Part shown: positions 14,705 through 20,510 of the stretch, piece by piece
Layout of the letters: each line of letters opens with the position of its first letter
Position numbering within the stretch: the first letter of the stretch is position 1
IMG/VR virus record: IMGVR_UViG_3300021963_004528
Coordinates: 1-20,697 of that record
DNA length: 20,697 nucleotides
Direction: 5' to 3' (one strand)
Source: a virus
Notes under the pieces: generated by a model
Seen by the model: the letters and a program-made list of their open reading frames with translations, nothing else
The model's database searches: none
What the model was told of the DNA's origin: nothing
Position numbers and translations under genes: made by a program

Positions 14705-14839
14705 TTAAATAGTTTCGTATTCATCTTTGCCTACACCGCATTCTGGGCATAGAAAGTCTTGTGGCAAGTCTTCCCACTTACCTTCTGTTTCTTCATCGTG
14801 GACATGTCCACATACTACGCATACGTGATCTGGTTTCAT
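14705..14839 (-). CDS. Rubredoxin
   Basis: A 44-residue one-iron electron carrier. Two Cys pairs, CVVCG (residues 7-11) and CPECG (31-35), form the FeCys4 site. The WEDLPQDFLCPECGVGKDEYE end is the standard rubredoxin C-terminus. It is somewhat shorter than the usual ~52 residues because the loop between the knuckles is reduced. A strong GGGAGG Shine-Dalgarno lies inside the last codons of the rubrerythrin gene, and the start overlaps its stop (ATGA). It therefore probably supplies electrons to that rubrerythrin, which has no rubredoxin domain of its own. Confidence 0.93.
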   Translation of the reverse strand: MKPDHVCVVCGHVHDEETEGKWEDLPQDFLCPECGVGKDEYETI

Positions 14840-15288
14840 TGTAGACCTCCCAATACTTGTTTATAAGCATTTGCATGGCGTTCTTCAACTTTCTTTAGTG
14901 CATTGAAACGCTTTTCTGCCTTTTCAAGAACTGCCTTGAATTGCTCTGCATGTTCTTTTGACTCAGCAATTTGTTCAGACATTTCTTGTTCAACTGCATG
15001 GTTATGTTCCAGTGAGGCCCAACGTTGAAAATCTGGATACATTTCTGTATACTCATAAACCTCACCATCAATTGCTTTCTGTAGGCATTCTTTGGTAGAA
15101 GGCTTACCGATTAACAATTCTAGATGTCCCCATGCATGTTTGATTTCTTGGTCTGCCGTGTGTTCAAAGTGTTTTGCAACATCTTCAAATCCTTCTTCAC
15201 GTGCGATTTTAGCAAAGTAGCGATATTTGATGTGAGCCATTGACTCACCCGCTAATGCGCTTTCTAGGTTTTTTAGTGTTATTGACAT
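14836..15288 (-). CDS. Rubrerythrin (diiron domain only)
   Basis: A 150-residue four-helix-bundle diiron protein. I chose the ATG at 15288 because AAAGGAAACACACA lies directly upstream; an in-frame ATG at 15327 would add a basic stretch foreign to the family. Probable iron ligands are E15 (AGESMA), E48 and H51 (ADQEIKHA), E76 and E79 (DGEVYE), and E135 and H138 (EERH). Classical rubrerythrins reduce hydrogen peroxide with electrons passed through a C-terminal rubredoxin domain. That domain is absent here and encoded separately just downstream. A peroxide-detoxifying role during infection is inferred. The first 44 bases overlap the end of the upstream gene in another frame. Confidence 0.9.
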   Translation of the reverse strand: MSITLKNLESALAGESMAHIKYRYFAKIAREEGFEDVAKHFEHTADQEIKHAWGHLELLIGKPSTKECLQKAIDGEVYEYTEMYPDFQRWASLEHNHAVEQEMSEQIAESKEHAEQFKAVLEKAEKRFNALKKVEERHANAYKQVLGGLQ

Positions 15289-15583
15289 TGTGTGTTTCCT
15301 TTTTAGTCTGTGTCTGTACTTCTTCAAGTACGATATTATTTAGACGTTTGATTTCCTTAATATCTTTATGTGAAGCAATTATACTATAATATACTTTATT
15401 TTCAAACTTAATTGGTAAATCTAAACTGATAGTAAATCTAGGCCCATCAATTTCATTGATGACGCTATCGCCATATATAGTACCTATGAAAGGAATTTTA
15501 TTCCATTTAGCAAAGATTCTAGTACCAAATTCATATTTAGGTTTGTAACGATTGTTTGCAAAATATTCGGAGAGACTGGCCAT
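15245..15583 (-). CDS. Conserved-looking phage protein, function unknown
   Basis: A 112-residue protein: SEYFANNRYKPKYEFGTR at the N-terminus, a beta-rich middle (WNKIPFIGTIYGDSVINE, FTISLDLPIKFENKVY), and a basic C-terminal tail (KKPRKR). No family recognised; the middle could be a small barrel or SH3-like fold. The ATG lies eight bases beyond the terminator hairpin of the upstream gene and has no visible Shine-Dalgarno. Its 3' end overlaps the start of rubrerythrin by 44 bases and contains that gene's ribosome-binding site. Confidence 0.65.
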   Translation of the reverse strand: MASLSEYFANNRYKPKYEFGTRIFAKWNKIPFIGTIYGDSVINEIDGPRFTISLDLPIKFENKVYYSIIASHKDIKEIKRLNNIVLEEVQTQTKKETHNVNNTKKPRKRISG

Positions 15584-15628: not shown

Positions 15629-16174
15629 TTAGAAACCGAATGTTAGGCCAAGACCATAAGCATTTTCTGAGATTTGCTCATAGCTTTTGCTTGCGTTAAC
15701 ATTAAGTGCAACACCTTTAGTAACAGGAATGCTGTATGTTGCGAATGCTACTGATTGAGTAGGCTTGTATGATTGGTCATTGATACGTGTCTTGACACCA
15801 CCAATTGCTAGACCAGGACCAACTTTAAGTGCGGTAGTTGCACCAACTAGACCATAGTTATATTGTTGACCCATGCCACCGTTCTTGCCCATGTCAAAGC
15901 CTACGCCGACAAAGGGAGTGAACATGCCCATACCTTTTCCAGCAGTTACTTCAACACTACTGAACATACCGGAACCGTCATGGTAGTTAGCAGTACGGCT
16001 TTGTAGACCATATTGAATGCCACTTAGTTCTTTACCGATACGAACATATTGTGCTGTGCTAGTTTGTTTGCTAACTTGGTCTTTAACATAGTCAACATCA
16101 AAACTTGCGTAGTTGGCTGCTGATGCTACAAAACCTGTTAGTGCTAGAATACTAGCTAATGCGATTTTCTTCAT
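15629..16174 (-). CDS. Outer-membrane beta-barrel protein with signal peptide
   Basis: A 181-residue protein with a Sec signal peptide (MKKIALASILALTGFVASA, cleavage after ASA at about residue 19). The mature part consists of alternating amphipathic strands and ends LGLTFGF, with the C-terminal Phe and aromatic pattern of a BAM-recognised beta-signal. Length fits an 8-stranded barrel. It has its own promoter-like sequence, an AAAGGA Shine-Dalgarno and a terminator, so it is expressed as a single gene. A phage could use such a protein to alter the host outer membrane (for example, receptor masking or superinfection exclusion), but that is a guess; a recent host origin is also possible. Confidence 0.78.
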   Translation of the reverse strand: MKKIALASILALTGFVASAANYASFDVDYVKDQVSKQTSTAQYVRIGKELSGIQYGLQSRTANYHDGSGMFSSVEVTAGKGMGMFTPFVGVGFDMGKNGGMGQQYNYGLVGATTALKVGPGLAIGGVKTRINDQSYKPTQSVAFATYSIPVTKGVALNVNASKSYEQISENAYGLGLTFGF

Positions 16175-16533: not shown

Positions 16534-16571
16534 GCGTCAATTATACATAGGTTTATAGTTAAGTCAAAAGA

Positions 16572-16592
16572 AAAGGGCAACTAGTGCCCTTT
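16572..16592 (-). terminator. Rho-independent terminator after tmRNA
   Basis: An 8-bp stem (AAAGGGCA / TGCCCTTT) with a 5-base loop is followed on the minus strand by TCTTTT. It lies just beyond the coding piece of the tmRNA and probably ends its transcript. Confidence 0.82.
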
Positions 16593-16599
16593 CTGATTT

Positions 16600-16812
16600 T
16601 CTGTTACGAGGTATGTCTTACCCTAAGCAGTGTTTAGGCTGCTAATGCGAACTGTGAGTCGTTTGCTTTTACTTCTTTTGCTTCTGCGACCGAGTAGAGC
16701 GTCTTTCTATACTATGGGTATAGCGACTACACTTTGCCCCCAATCCTACGGCTTTCGCATTGCCGTGCTGTCCACTCTGTTACTCTTTGCCCTGTCGAAA
16801 CTATGCAGGCCC
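16600..16812 (-). ncRNA. ssrA: Permuted tmRNA, coding (tag) piece
   Basis: On the minus strand the piece opens with GGGCCTG then CATAGTTTCGACAGGGC, the conserved tmRNA 5' D-arm region. GGGCCTG (16812-16806) pairs with CAGGTCC (17038-17032) of the acceptor piece, with a G-U at pair 3, the identity element for alanyl-tRNA synthetase. Hairpins ACGGC/GCCGT and CTATAC/GTATAG follow. The tag frame runs from 16687 (GCA preceded by GTC as in E. coli) to TAA at 16634 and reads AEAKEVKANDSQFALAA. CCTAA/TTAGG forms a hairpin over the stop. A 6-base match (ACAGCA here, TGCTGT in the acceptor piece) fits helix 2. The 3' boundary is approximate. Role: ribosome rescue and tagging for proteolysis with SmpB. 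Confidence 0.92.
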
Positions 16813-16825
16813 GTCATAAAGAAAC

Positions 16826-16903
16826 TTAGTCTACGCTTAATGTTGTTAACAACAAGCATAATATTGGAAAAACAATTAATAAAAATTTTGTTAAATTTTC
16901 CAT
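16826..16903 (-). CDS. Tiny hydrophobic ORF in tmRNA intervening segment (25 aa)
   Basis: A 25-codon ORF starting MENLTKFLLIVFP, with a continuous hydrophobic stretch and a Cys (FPILC) in a lipobox-like setting. It starts one base after the stop of the preceding tiny ORF and ends 13 bases before the tmRNA coding piece. The Shine-Dalgarno is weak. It may be real through coupling, or a chance ORF in T-rich sequence. Confidence 0.35.
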   Translation of the reverse strand: MENLTKFLLIVFPILCLLLTTLSVD

Positions 16904-16904
16904 A

Positions 16905-17015
16905 TTACCATAACTCACAGTTTTTTATTTTCTCTTCGTCCAATGTGGTATCACGTGTAAAATAAAATACACCAAACACTAACCAAAATAACAAAAATAA
17001 AACATAACTTATCAT
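16905..17015 (-). CDS. Tiny membrane-protein ORF in tmRNA intervening segment (36 aa)
   Basis: A 36-codon ORF with one strong transmembrane helix (MISYVLFLLFWLVFGVFYF), a positive residue after it (TR) and an acidic/basic tail (LDEEKIKNC). A strong Shine-Dalgarno, AAGGAAG, is well spaced before the ATG. The ATG lies 12 bases after the CCA end of the tmRNA acceptor piece. Function unknown. The ribosome-binding site and the charge asymmetry around the helix argue that it is translated. Confidence 0.6.
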   Translation of the reverse strand: MISYVLFLLFWLVFGVFYFTRDTTLDEEKIKNCELW

Positions 17016-17027
17016 TAAACTTCCTTA

Positions 17028-17095
17028 TGGTGGACCTGGGGGGATTCGCACCCCCGTCCAAAACACTTTTCTCTCGGCTTCATACAGCAATAACT
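17028..17095 (-). ncRNA. ssrA: Permuted tmRNA, acceptor piece
   Basis: On the minus strand the T-arm is GGGGG, TGCGAAT, CCCCC (17055-17039), followed by CAGGTCC, discriminator A and an encoded CCA ending at 17028. TTTTGGAC before the T-arm matches the TTTCGGAC of E. coli tmRNA. Only a T half-molecule is present, so it is not a tRNA. The matching 5' half lies downstream in the transcript (coding piece), which defines a circularly permuted, two-piece tmRNA as in alphaproteobacteria, some cyanobacteria and some betaproteobacteria. TGCTGT (17089-17084) can pair with ACAGCA of the coding piece. The 5' boundary is an estimate. Confidence 0.92.
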
Positions 17096-17107
17096 TACAG
17101 TATATAT

Positions 17108-17269
17108 TTATTCTTTGGGTTTGTCAACTGCTTTGGAGATGATATCGTATACTTGGGTATATGCATCTGTTATTTTGTCTAGTTGCTGTTCTGTAACCAA
17201 TTCATTATCTTCCAAACTAACTAAGTCTTTGGCTAAGTTTTCTTGTAAAGTTTTGATCTGGTTATTCAT
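17108..17269 (-). CDS. Small coiled-coil-like protein, function unknown
   Basis: A 53-residue helical protein from the ATG at 17269 (MNNQIKTLQENLAKDL). I prefer this start to the in-frame ATG at 17296, which would overlap the tiny membrane gene; 17269 sits one base after that gene's stop. The heptad-like pattern of Leu/Ile and charged residues suggests a short coiled coil. No family recognised. It ends about 12 bases before the tmRNA acceptor piece. Confidence 0.6.
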   Translation of the reverse strand: MNNQIKTLQENLAKDLVSLEDNELVTEQQLDKITDAYTQVYDIISKAVDKPKE

Positions 17270-17270
17270 T

Positions 17271-17369
17271 TTATACAATACGTTTGAGTAGTCCAATTAT
17301 AATACCAAACATAGGTATTAGTAATAGGCTCATTCCAAACAATACTACTAATCCCAAAAGATATTTCAT
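17271..17369 (-). CDS. Tiny membrane protein (32 aa), function unknown
   Basis: A 32-codon ORF, MKYLLGLVVLFGMSLLLIPM followed by a hydrophobic run and a basic end (LLKRIV). Almost the entire peptide is hydrophobic, with one or two short transmembrane segments. The ATG lies six bases after the stop of the 1044-residue gene and the stop is followed one base later by the next ATG. The tight spacing on both sides supports expression; no clear Shine-Dalgarno is present. Confidence 0.55.
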   Translation of the reverse strand: MKYLLGLVVLFGMSLLLIPMFGIIIGLLKRIV

Positions 17370-17375
17370 TGTATA

Positions 17376-20300
17376 CTATTTATTGTAATATTGCCTAATC
17401 CAGTCCCAATCATAGGTTAATTTCAACTTTTCTAACTCTCCGTTTACTGAATTATAATATTCTACAGCATCTTTAGCACCCTGCATACTATGTTCAGCAA
17501 ATTCACCGGATCCTACTGTCAACCAAGTATTAAGTCTATCTTTGCTAGTTTTATCCTTAGCATATGATAATTTAATACATTCACGGAAGCTAGTTCTCCA
17601 AGTATCCCATTCACTACTATTATACAATGCTACACCGCTATTTACTTCAATAACTTCGGTACGACTATCCATAGTAAAGTCAAGACCTCTACCTACAGTA
17701 CTAAGTGTAAGTTTCTTATTGTTAGCTACAATAGCTTGATGACCATACTCTAAGTTGTTTACTGGATTAGTAGCAGTAAAGATATAATGTCTGCGTGATT
17801 TATATACGTTTGGTTGCCAAGTAAAATCAAAATTTTCACTTACTCGCAACTTAGCATTTACTAAGAAGTACCAAGGTGTAGCACTTGCATTGGCCGCTGC
17901 ATATTGACTAGCAATTCGACCATTAATTTTGTCAATACGAATTACTTTATTTGGCAAATCTTTTGTGATAGATAATAAATGTTCATAGTTACTATCAGCA
18001 CATGCTTCTCCGTTGCTAAAGAATACAATGTCCAACGGCTCACCTGATGATACCGAATGAGTAACACAATGCTCATAATCGGTCAATTTATTATACATAT
18101 ATATTTTAGTATTTCTAGGTACAATCGCATCATCACCTAGTAAATGCACAGTTAGTTCCTTTCTATTAAGGAAACTATAATCAGTTGTGTGTTTCTTTTT
18201 AACAAAATGTATGTAAGCAGTTGAGTACTTACCATCATGCAAAGCATCAAAGATACTATCTTCATACTCTACTTGCTCAATAGATAAGTCGGCTGATATA
18301 TCAGTAATGAATTTATTGGCTATACTTGAAGAACTCTTATATGTAAGAGTTGGCATAATTTCAGGTGTGTGAAATTTATTACCAAACACGTATGTATAAT
18401 TTTCTTCCGTCTCGTCTGGATGCCAACTAAAGTCAAACGTTTCTGTGTCAATGGGTTCGATGATACGCCAATTACGATTGTTAGGTTTCTTAACTGCCTT
18501 TAGCACATCTATATATTTTATCTTATCTGCACCAGGTACAATATAATTTGGACCACCTGTCTTCTGCCATTGTGTACCAAACTTATATATGAACGGTGGT
18601 TCACCAGGATCAGGACACCAGCTATAATCAAACATACTATCGTCTATGTCATCAGGTATAACCCAATTATCCAACTTAGCTGTCAATGTAGTCTTTACAC
18701 TATTAATGAATTTCTTTTCAGTGGCTCCAGGAACTTTATATAGAAGCGTTGGCATAACTTCTGCAGGATACCATTGATTACCAATCATATAGATATAAGG
18801 AGGGTCATTAGGATCAGGGTGCCAACTGTAATCAAACTCAAAATTATTAACTAAAGGTCTAAAATTTCTATTATCTGGTATGGGCTTGCGTATCGCAATC
18901 TGATCACTACAATATTTTTTCATTGTAGCACCTTTAGAGATATAAAAAGGTCCGCCGGCTGGTTGCCATTGAGTTCCGAACTCATATATCATTAGAGGTT
19001 CAGTATCATCTGGATGCCAACTGAAATCAAACTTCTCTGTTTCTATTTCATCTAACATTCTCCAATTACGCATGTTTACTAACTTGGTAACTTTTTGAGT
19101 GTCAACATACTTTACCTTAGTGGCACCTTGTACTAGATAAGATGGTCCACCGGTCTTTTGCCATTGTGTGCCAAATCTATATTCTAAAGGCGGGTCATTA
19201 GGATTAGGTACCCAGCTATAATCAAACATACTATCGTCTATATCATCGGGTATTGTCCACTTAGACTTATCTGCTAATAAAGTTGCTTTATAAGTATATC
19301 CCATATATTTTTTTTCAGTAGCCGCCGGCGTGCGGTATATTACAGTTGGCATGGTGATAGCATCATACCATTGATTTCCAAACACATATACGTACGGAGG
19401 ATCCTCTTCATCTGGATGCCAACTAGAATCAAATTCAATATTTGTTTGTATTTGATATAATCTCCAATTACGATTATTAGGGTCAGGCAACCTTTTAACT
19501 GTCATAGTTGACATATATTTGATACCCGTGCTTACTTCACTATCATATACTGGTCCACCTGTTCTTTGCCATTGCGTACCAAATTTATATGTGAGTGGAG
19601 GGTCAGTTGGATTAGGTACCCAACTATAGTCAAACATACTATCGTCTATATTATCTGGTATTTTCCACTTAGACTTATCTTCTAACAAAGTTGCTTTGTG
19701 GTCATGTATAAATTTCTTTTCAGTTGCACCTTTAACTCTATACAAAACAGTTGGCATTATTTCAGGCTCATACCATTGATTTCCAAACACATATATGTAC
19801 GGAGGGTCATCTTCATCTGGGTGCCAACTATAGTCAAAGTTTATATTTGCTTGTAATGGTCTCCAATGTTTGTTTGTTGAGTTATCAATTATTGCGTGTT
19901 GAACGTCAATGTGTTTAACAGTTTCAGCCCCGTCTGCTATATATCTAGGTCCACCATTCTTTTGCCACTGAGTACCAAATTGCCAAATAAATGTAGGCTC
20001 ATATGGATGTGGTACCCAACTATAATCAAACTCTATAATATTATCAGGTATTTCCCATTTACTTTGATCCGGTAATAAAGTTGCAGTAACATCATACATG
20101 AACTTCTTTTCTGTTGCTCCTGCAACACGATACTGATAAGTAGGCATAATGTCTACATCATACCATTGATTACCAAATATATAGATATAGGGAGGGTCAG
20201 TATCAGGCGGATGCCAACTAAAATCTATTGTACTATTAGATAACAACGGTCTCCATGCTCTATTATTGATATCAGGTTTTTTTATTGCATGTTGAAAATC

Positions 20301-20510
20301 TTGATACTTTACTCCTTCATGCTCTGGAATAATAAATCTAGGTCCGCCAGTAGGTTGATGCTGTGTACCAAATTGATGTATGTAGGGGCGGTCGCATGGA
20401 TCTGGTCGCCAGTCAAAGTTGAACTCTATTGTATCTAGATTGTCAGGTACTTCCCAGTACCCTTCATTCCATAAATTTAATCTTCTATCTATTTCTGTTT
20501 TTGTAATCAT
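17376..20510 (-). CDS. Eleven-repeat protein with possible glycosyltransferase-like C-terminus
   Basis: A 1044-residue protein. Residues ~28-750 consist of eleven repeats of about 65 residues. Each starts with a core like FDYSWHPDPNDPPYIYVFG. Two subtypes are visible: type A continues TQWQKTGGP and a KYxD segment, type B continues NQWYxxEIMPT then GATEKKF. The order is A-B-A-B-A-B-A-A-B-A-B. The last ~287 residues form a separate domain (LDIVFFSNGEACADSNYEHL, VIRIDKINGRIASQYAAANA, TPWYFLVNAKLRV) that resembles a GT-A glycosyltransferase fold, although a clear DxD is not seen. I recall related repeats in marine T4-like phages without known function. The start overlaps the carbamoyltransferase stop (TAATG), so both are co-translated and possibly act on one glycan or metabolite. 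Confidence 0.75.
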   Translation of the reverse strand: MITKTEIDRRLNLWNEGYWEVPDNLDTIEFNFDWRPDPCDRPYIHQFGTQHQPTGGPRFIIPEHEGVKYQDFQHAIKKPDINNRAWRPLLSNSTIDFSWHPPDTDPPYIYIFGNQWYDVDIMPTYQYRVAGATEKKFMYDVTATLLPDQSKWEIPDNIIEFDYSWVPHPYEPTFIWQFGTQWQKNGGPRYIADGAETVKHIDVQHAIIDNSTNKHWRPLQANINFDYSWHPDEDDPPYIYVFGNQWYEPEIMPTVLYRVKGATEKKFIHDHKATLLEDKSKWKIPDNIDDSMFDYSWVPNPTDPPLTYKFGTQWQRTGGPVYDSEVSTGIKYMSTMTVKRLPDPNNRNWRLYQIQTNIEFDSSWHPDEEDPPYVYVFGNQWYDAITMPTVIYRTPAATEKKYMGYTYKATLLADKSKWTIPDDIDDSMFDYSWVPNPNDPPLEYRFGTQWQKTGGPSYLVQGATKVKYVDTQKVTKLVNMRNWRMLDEIETEKFDFSWHPDDTEPLMIYEFGTQWQPAGGPFYISKGATMKKYCSDQIAIRKPIPDNRNFRPLVNNFEFDYSWHPDPNDPPYIYMIGNQWYPAEVMPTLLYKVPGATEKKFINSVKTTLTAKLDNWVIPDDIDDSMFDYSWCPDPGEPPFIYKFGTQWQKTGGPNYIVPGADKIKYIDVLKAVKKPNNRNWRIIEPIDTETFDFSWHPDETEENYTYVFGNKFHTPEIMPTLTYKSSSSIANKFITDISADLSIEQVEYEDSIFDALHDGKYSTAYIHFVKKKHTTDYSFLNRKELTVHLLGDDAIVPRNTKIYMYNKLTDYEHCVTHSVSSGEPLDIVFFSNGEACADSNYEHLLSITKDLPNKVIRIDKINGRIASQYAAANASATPWYFLVNAKLRVSENFDFTWQPNVYKSRRHYIFTATNPVNNLEYGHQAIVANNKKLTLSTVGRGLDFTMDSRTEVIEVNSGVALYNSSEWDTWRTSFRECIKLSYAKDKTSKDRLNTWLTVGSGEFAEHSMQGAKDAVEYYNSVNGELEKLKLTYDWDWIRQYYNK

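Follow-up and report, generated by a model that had tools for sequence, protein, structure and literature searches.

Small genes nested in the spacer of a permuted phage tmRNA: a putative gene slot translated before the tmRNA matures

Permuted tmRNAs are processed by excision of a spacer, which yields a two-piece tmRNA that works with SmpB. The question raised by the locus described here is whether such a spacer can itself be a protein-coding region and, if so, at which stage of the life of the RNA it would be translated. The window, that is the whole stretch of DNA that was analysed, corresponds to an entire IMG/VR virus record of 20,697 bases. It contains a permuted two-piece tmRNA at positions 17089-16634 of the minus strand, which matches the full RF04321 model end to end (96.6 bits for a gathering score of 47) in the order acceptor piece, spacer and coding piece (Table 1). 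ARAGORN called no tmRNA in the window, whereas the Rfam model finds this one, and the Rfam scan of the window detected nothing besides RF04321. The ACCA is encoded at 17031-17028, with the CCA ending at 17028, and the acceptor stem is formed by GGGCCUG of the coding piece (from 16812) and CAGGUCC, with seven out of seven pairs including G3-U70. The same tag, ANDSQFALAA*, was identified by ARAGORN in a relative (L002). A group I intron carrying a homing endonuclease ORF was considered for this tmRNA and rejected, because the T-loop is intact and Rfam gives only RF04321.

The unit is flanked by a promoter and a terminator, so that ORFs lying within it would here be read from the tmRNA precursor alone. 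Only 29% of the relatives show such a promoter (at least 10 of 12 matches in the corresponding stretch, versus 3.5% of shuffled stretches). Elsewhere on the same strand of the window, a hydrophobic ORF of 32 aa located 5' of the tmRNA (17271-17369) is a further candidate small membrane protein, and positions 17376-20510 encode a repeat-built protein of 1044 aa (for example FDYSWHPD..PPYIYVFGNQW) in which Pfam detects no domain at its cut-off. A 181-aa protein (15629-16174) with a signal-peptide-like start and no Pfam match resembles an outer-membrane beta-barrel, and a rubrerythrin (PF02915, 3e-16) is encoded at 14836-15327; both represent unusual phage cargo.

Table 1. Coordinates of the tmRNA unit and of the features nested in its spacer.
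Feature	Position	Strand	Basis
Sigma-70-type promoter TTGACA-17-TATACT, directly upstream of the acceptor piece	17099..17127	-	11/12 consensus matches
tmRNA acceptor piece (3' half of tRNA-like domain, T-arm, encoded CCA)	17028..17089	-	RF04321 alignment
Closing helix, 5' arm: ACCA + TAAGGAAGTTT, contains SD AAGGAAG	17017..17031	-	in-register pairing and covariation
Intervening spacer, 215 nt	16813..17027	-	bounds from CCA and 7-bp acceptor stem GGGCCTG/CAGGTCC
ORF1, ATG, 36 aa, MISYVLFLLFWLVFGVFYFTRDTTLDEEKIKNCELW, one predicted transmembrane helix	16905..17015	-	reading frame; homologue in L247
ORF2, ATG, 25 aa, MENLTKFLLIVFPILCLLLTTLSVD, hydrophobic	16826..16903	-	reading frame and stop position
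Closing helix, 3' arm: AAGTTTCTTTATGAC, supplies ORF2 stop (TAA overlap) and the UGA used as stop by single-ORF spacers	16813..16827	-	
tmRNA coding piece (5' half of tRNA-like domain, tag reading frame)	16634..16812	-	RF04321 alignment
Tag reading frame GCAAACGACTCACAGTTCGCATTAGCAGCCTAA = ANDSQFALAA*	16634..16666	-	read from sequence
Intrinsic terminator 3' of the coding piece	16571..16593	-	9-pair stem, then CTTTT

A preliminary description of the locus had reported two ORFs nested in the spacer, and this was confirmed: ORF1 is followed after one base by ORF2, within a genuine RF04321 tmRNA, and the two ORFs with their stops cover 88% of the spacer, which they had been said to nearly fill. 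It had also placed a Shine-Dalgarno sequence (SD), AAGGAAG, 12 bases after the CCA; the motif is present (17026-17020) but lies 2-8 nt after the CCA, and it is the ATG of ORF1 that is found at 12 nt. Translational coupling is possible at the 1-nt junction between the ORFs, and ORF2 stops 13 nt before the coding piece. Each ORF has a hydrophobic stretch, with 17-residue Kyte-Doolittle maxima of 2.5 for ORF1 and 2.7 for ORF2, and ORF1 most likely encodes a small inner-membrane protein, for which a role in host take-over or lysis timing is a guess. No match was obtained for ORF1 by tblastn against GenBank phages, and PHROGs gave nothing better than E = 0.04 for the window ORFs. A 111-aa ORF of the plus strand that lies over the tmRNA was taken as a chance occurrence, since spanning ORFs are absent from all spacer reverse strands.

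In 20,000 dinucleotide shuffles of the window spacer, which has 25% GC, an ATG ORF of at least 36 aa starting within 16 nt arose in 1.0% of cases, and two ORFs in tandem as in the window arose in 0.055%. Evidence drawn from the comparison of related sequences is far stronger than this single-window figure. When the conserved frame was looked for in related phages, as had been suggested, both ORFs were found in six near-identical copies, and a diverged copy (L247) has retained an ORF1 homologue (MIGYVLFLVFWLVFGVFYITRDKTRDIEKLKQCQLW) in the same place, with mostly synonymous change. Window ORF1 and its L247 homologue display 13.3 synonymous differences in 20 sites and 12.7 nonsynonymous differences in 88, giving a pN/pS of 0.22-0.24 (p = 0.003 for the trimmed alignment). 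As judged from this comparison, ORF1 is under purifying selection at the amino-acid level. The seven copies of ORF2 (window plus six) differ by two changed codons, too few substitutions for a selection test, and in L247 it is replaced by a different second ORF of 35 aa, membrane-like, that ends 12 nt before the coding piece. The second ORFs of the two-ORF spacers L247 and L174 likewise stop 12-13 nt before the spacer end. From its frame and stop position, ORF2 is a candidate gene that is probably real.

Permuted tmRNAs were gathered from IMG/VR by two routes blind to spacer content, one based on the downstream neighbour gene and the other on a coding-piece pattern, while a third IMG/VR sample was selected for SD plus ATG and is biased towards ORF spacers. 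The detector, which uses only the acceptor stem, the T-stem and the coding-piece landmark, returned 207 permuted tmRNAs. Among the 84 distinct spacers of the content-blind set, 28 contain an ATG ORF beginning immediately downstream of the CCA and extending across the spacer, compared with a mean of 0.9 and a maximum of 5 in dinucleotide shuffles and with none on the reverse strand. The stop falls exactly 1 nt before the coding piece in 20 cases of this set (0.08 expected), and an SD occurs in 22/28 ORF spacers vs 5/56 other spacers. All samples pooled yield 101 distinct ORFs in 53 BLAST groups; because some groups (e.g. L005/L018) are probably not genes and the SD-selected sample inflates the count, ca. 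50 unrelated families are stated here, which come mostly, but not solely, from that sample. Unrelated genes repeatedly have their start 9-14 nt downstream of the CCA and their stop 1 or 12-13 nt upstream of the coding piece; some of the ORFs have only 19-25 aa. The claim that spacers can be protein-coding thus appears to hold, given the synonymous change in ORF1 and the presence of genes in the same place in many other phages. The expectation of small membrane proteins as products was borne out in part: 14/53 families (about a quarter) are membrane-like, and others are soluble, such as a thioredoxin and a CxxCxxCC protein. Around two thirds of the unselected spacers have no ORF, which makes the nested gene dispensable for tmRNA function.

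All cultured phages with a permuted tmRNA that were examined (two relatives of Stenotrophomonas phage Mendera, Xanthomonas X1, Acinetobacter BUCT628, Alcaligenes QDWS595 and Ruegeria RpAliso) carry spacers of 26-126 nt that lack an ORF. GenBank records of Stenotrophomonas phages carry a tRNA-Leu annotation that overlaps the permuted tmRNA in its acceptor half, and in several of them the tmRNA itself is missing from the annotation. Bacterial and archaeal genomes, in which host permuted tmRNAs were sampled unevenly, gave 0 matches for the acceptor+SD+ATG pattern, and the coding-piece pattern of the phages matched once, in a contig (L413, DITF01000195.1) of the bacterial MAG UBA6191. The spacer of this contig has no ORF and matches those of phages, being equal to phage spacer L085 in length and ends; the contig is probably of phage origin and was assigned to the MAG by binning. 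An alpha-type search pattern returned no usable permuted tmRNAs. A non-canonical T-loop (GGCAGTR, GGCGGTA or GGCAGTT, not TTCGANT) was observed in 23/207 phage permuted tmRNAs (L257, L281, L267, L237, L254 and others), and many of the examples looked at have ATCGAT instead of TTCGAC in the coding piece, possibly reflecting a changed T-loop/D-loop contact. Finally, in some families (L212, L230, L259, L276 and L290; also L217/L227 and L213/L218) the ORF has no stop in the spacer and runs 12-70 nt into the coding piece, so that translation would enter the tRNA-like domain.

Several nested ORFs have recognisable products. The L238 spacer encodes an entire thioredoxin, including the CGPC site (PF00085, 4e-21), and the L091 spacer the CxxCxxCC protein (PF03692, 1e-6). 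Nested thioredoxins end in KVSL*, the last codons being the helix sequence (see below), whereas free-standing homologues with 87-89% identity, located outside any detected tmRNA, end in KVK* (KAK* in one case). A separate nested thioredoxin, L325, has a pN/pS of 0.21 relative to the L238 copy. In most families with enough changes pN/pS is 0.10-0.46, selection being weak or absent in a few (1.41 for L261/L283; 0.5-0.8 for families of 22-24 aa). Near-identical copies of the window cassette are joined to a different tag region, a family of 122-aa spacer proteins occurs with different T-loops and, more generally, closely related cassettes sit in tmRNAs with differing coding pieces and T-loops, which indicates that cassettes and tmRNA bodies recombine. 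As the thioredoxin gene illustrates, genes have been captured into spacers and exchanged between them. Homing-endonuclease-like genes adjoin the tmRNA in L002 (a NUMOD-like end, upstream) and in L413 (a GIY-YIG-like start, minus strand) and could drive mobility of the locus. The 122-aa protein had no tblastn match in GenBank phages; its AlphaFold model is of low confidence (pLDDT 62) and the best Foldseek matches, none significant, were mostly GNAT acetyltransferases, so that a GNAT identity is only hinted at. That the nested ORFs arose by chance in AT-rich spacers, for which the base composition of the window spacer and the 1% figure taken alone might plead, is already refuted for the class by the 28 spanning ORFs where 0.9 were expected, the pN/pS values, the Pfam domains and the free-standing homologues, and deserves practically no credence.

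At its two ends the spacer forms an in-register helix in which ACCA faces UGAU and ca. 11 further pairs follow, extending the acceptor stem. In ORF spacers the 5' arm of this closing helix is the SD, while the 3' arm provides the stop codon, usually a UGA paired with the CCA end. This UGA faces the CCA at the cleavage site in 60/101 ORFs, the alternative being a TAA or TAG about 12-13 nt before the end. Pairing is supported by covariation: double-change cells number 158 in ORF-free spacers, where chance would give 44, and 47 in ORF spacers represented by a single member of each family, where it would give 15. G-U wobbles cluster at two SD positions (67/101 and 77/101 in ORF spacers vs 10/55 and 14/55 in ORF-free ones), and pairing kept by wobbles at the SD is read here as the mark of two constraints on one stretch. 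A C74-A(-2) mismatch between CCA and UGAU is near-invariant across all spacers, with flanking pairs kept, and may mark the cleavage or trimming site. The proposed link between tmRNA maturation and the nested gene is supported by this anatomy.

One explanation of the nested ORFs is of the leader-peptide type, in which the act of translation controls folding or processing of the tmRNA and the product is irrelevant. The stop codon at the cleavage site in these 60 ORFs and the very small size of some of them agree with it; yet purifying selection on amino acids and the complete, CGPC-bearing thioredoxin imply that products matter in many families, making this explanation very unlikely.

Folding in silico of isolated RNA predicted the SD to be unpaired with a median probability of 0.61 in nascent RNA; the median is 0.01 for the full-length precursor and 0.04 for the spacer after excision. 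Predicted accessibility was higher in the nascent RNA than in the precursor in 92/92 pairs, and for the window the three values are 0.65, 0.005 and 0.017. The arms of ORF spacers form a weak helix (about -5.9 kcal/mol), stronger ones being found in ORF-free spacers, and this weakness means that the helix may open transiently and permit ribosomes to initiate on the precursor or on the spacer once excised. The preliminary description had envisaged that the excised spacer, released by tmRNA maturation, is translated as a free mini-mRNA. Excision would indeed leave the ORF intact, since no part of it lies outside the segment removed and its end is usually 1 nt short of the RNase P site. However, both helix arms remain on the excised RNA, in which the SD is still predicted to be paired, and a 3' end one base past the stop would be open to exonucleases, whose trimming would create a nonstop message. 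With the SD predicted to be open in nascent RNA and hidden in both later forms, translation of the nascent precursor is favoured, and the mini-mRNA is improbable.

We therefore favour, with a probability of roughly 0.7, the reading in which the spacer of phage permuted tmRNAs is a gene slot and one transcript would act first as an mRNA and then as a tmRNA. In the window, the slot would be occupied by ORF1, coding for a small membrane protein, and by ORF2, probably a gene as well. RNA polymerase would make the acceptor piece, then the SD and the ATG right behind the CCA, and a ribosome could load while the remaining RNA is synthesised, the SD being predicted open at this stage. Once made, the 3' end of the spacer would pair with the SD and the CCA in a helix that continues the acceptor stem, and the closed helix would stop further initiation. 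RNase P and 3' processing would then excise the spacer, and the mature two-piece tmRNA would presumably depend on host SmpB, SmpB having not been found in eight related phage records (up to 364 kb). We are evenly divided over a broader proposal, namely that this is a cassette site in a non-coding RNA gene, whose processing helix has evolved with a ribosome-binding site on one strand and a stop codon on the other, so that an inserted small gene would be expressed only from the nascent precursor and silenced as the RNA matures.

The same data can be viewed without any such control, the spacer being a neutral harbour in which genes were captured since insertion there is harmless to the tmRNA, and from which they are translated normally on the precursor, the helix serving for processing only. 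The ca. 50 unrelated genes in one site, the related cassettes in tmRNAs of different make-up, the free-standing homologues and the even stronger helix of ORF-free spacers are all compatible with this possibility. It accounts less readily for the recurrence of SD position, start distance and stop position across unrelated genes and for the clustering of wobble pairs at the SD, even if both could arise simply from the need for an SD within a required helix. We regard the harbour as possible, though rather unlikely.

The gene-slot reading has partial parallels. Dual-function RNAs such as SgrS/SgrT and RNAIII provide an RNA function and a small protein from one transcript. The phage spacers share this combination and differ in that the coding part is cut from the functional RNA, which is a tRNA-like tmRNA, and that the gene is interchangeable. 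Long-range helices that sequester the SD limit translation to the nascent RNA in, e.g., the MS2 maturation gene and hok mRNA. As proposed here, translation is possible there before the helix covers the SD, but that helix has no role in tRNA-like maturation, whereas the phage spacer helix extends the tmRNA acceptor stem. Permuted tmRNAs of alpha- and betaproteobacteria, cyanobacteria and some phages (RF04321, RF01849-51; PMC11915505; Melnitz, PMC9004378) share with the window the acceptor-spacer-coding order, the encoded CCA, the 7-bp stem with G3-U70, the T-arm and a tag ending in LAA*; their spacer is normally described as discarded, whereas some of the phage spacers described here hold protein genes. 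The accessible part of one survey (PMC11915505) reports 11,946 unique permuted tmRNA sequences, one of which has a tRNA gene and another a repetitive element within its intervening sequence, and mentions no protein gene; likewise, no nested gene is mentioned in the accessible part of the description of the permuted tmRNA of phage Melnitz (PMC9004378). According to the same part of the survey (PMC11915505), group I introns with homing-endonuclease ORFs in tmRNA genes also place a protein gene within RNA removed at maturation, but they interrupt the T-loop, self-splice and carry homing endonucleases, unlike the phage spacers, which have no intron, undergo tRNA-type processing and hold diverse genes, none recognised as an endonuclease so far. 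No published example of a protein gene in a tmRNA spacer was found in the open literature searched; with subscription journals outside this scope, priority is uncertain.

These data point to a coding role, previously not known, for the discarded part of a tmRNA transcript, and many phages in the collection appear to carry exchangeable small genes there. Annotation has probably overlooked such genes, since ORF calling is usually run with RNA genes masked, and the simple rule of looking between the CCA and the coding piece would lead to dozens of unannotated phage microproteins. The locus also offers a natural test case for an RNA required to serve as a messenger before it becomes tRNA-like. If the cassette-site proposal is true, a changing stock of small phage proteins would be coupled to the production of the ribosome-rescue RNA.
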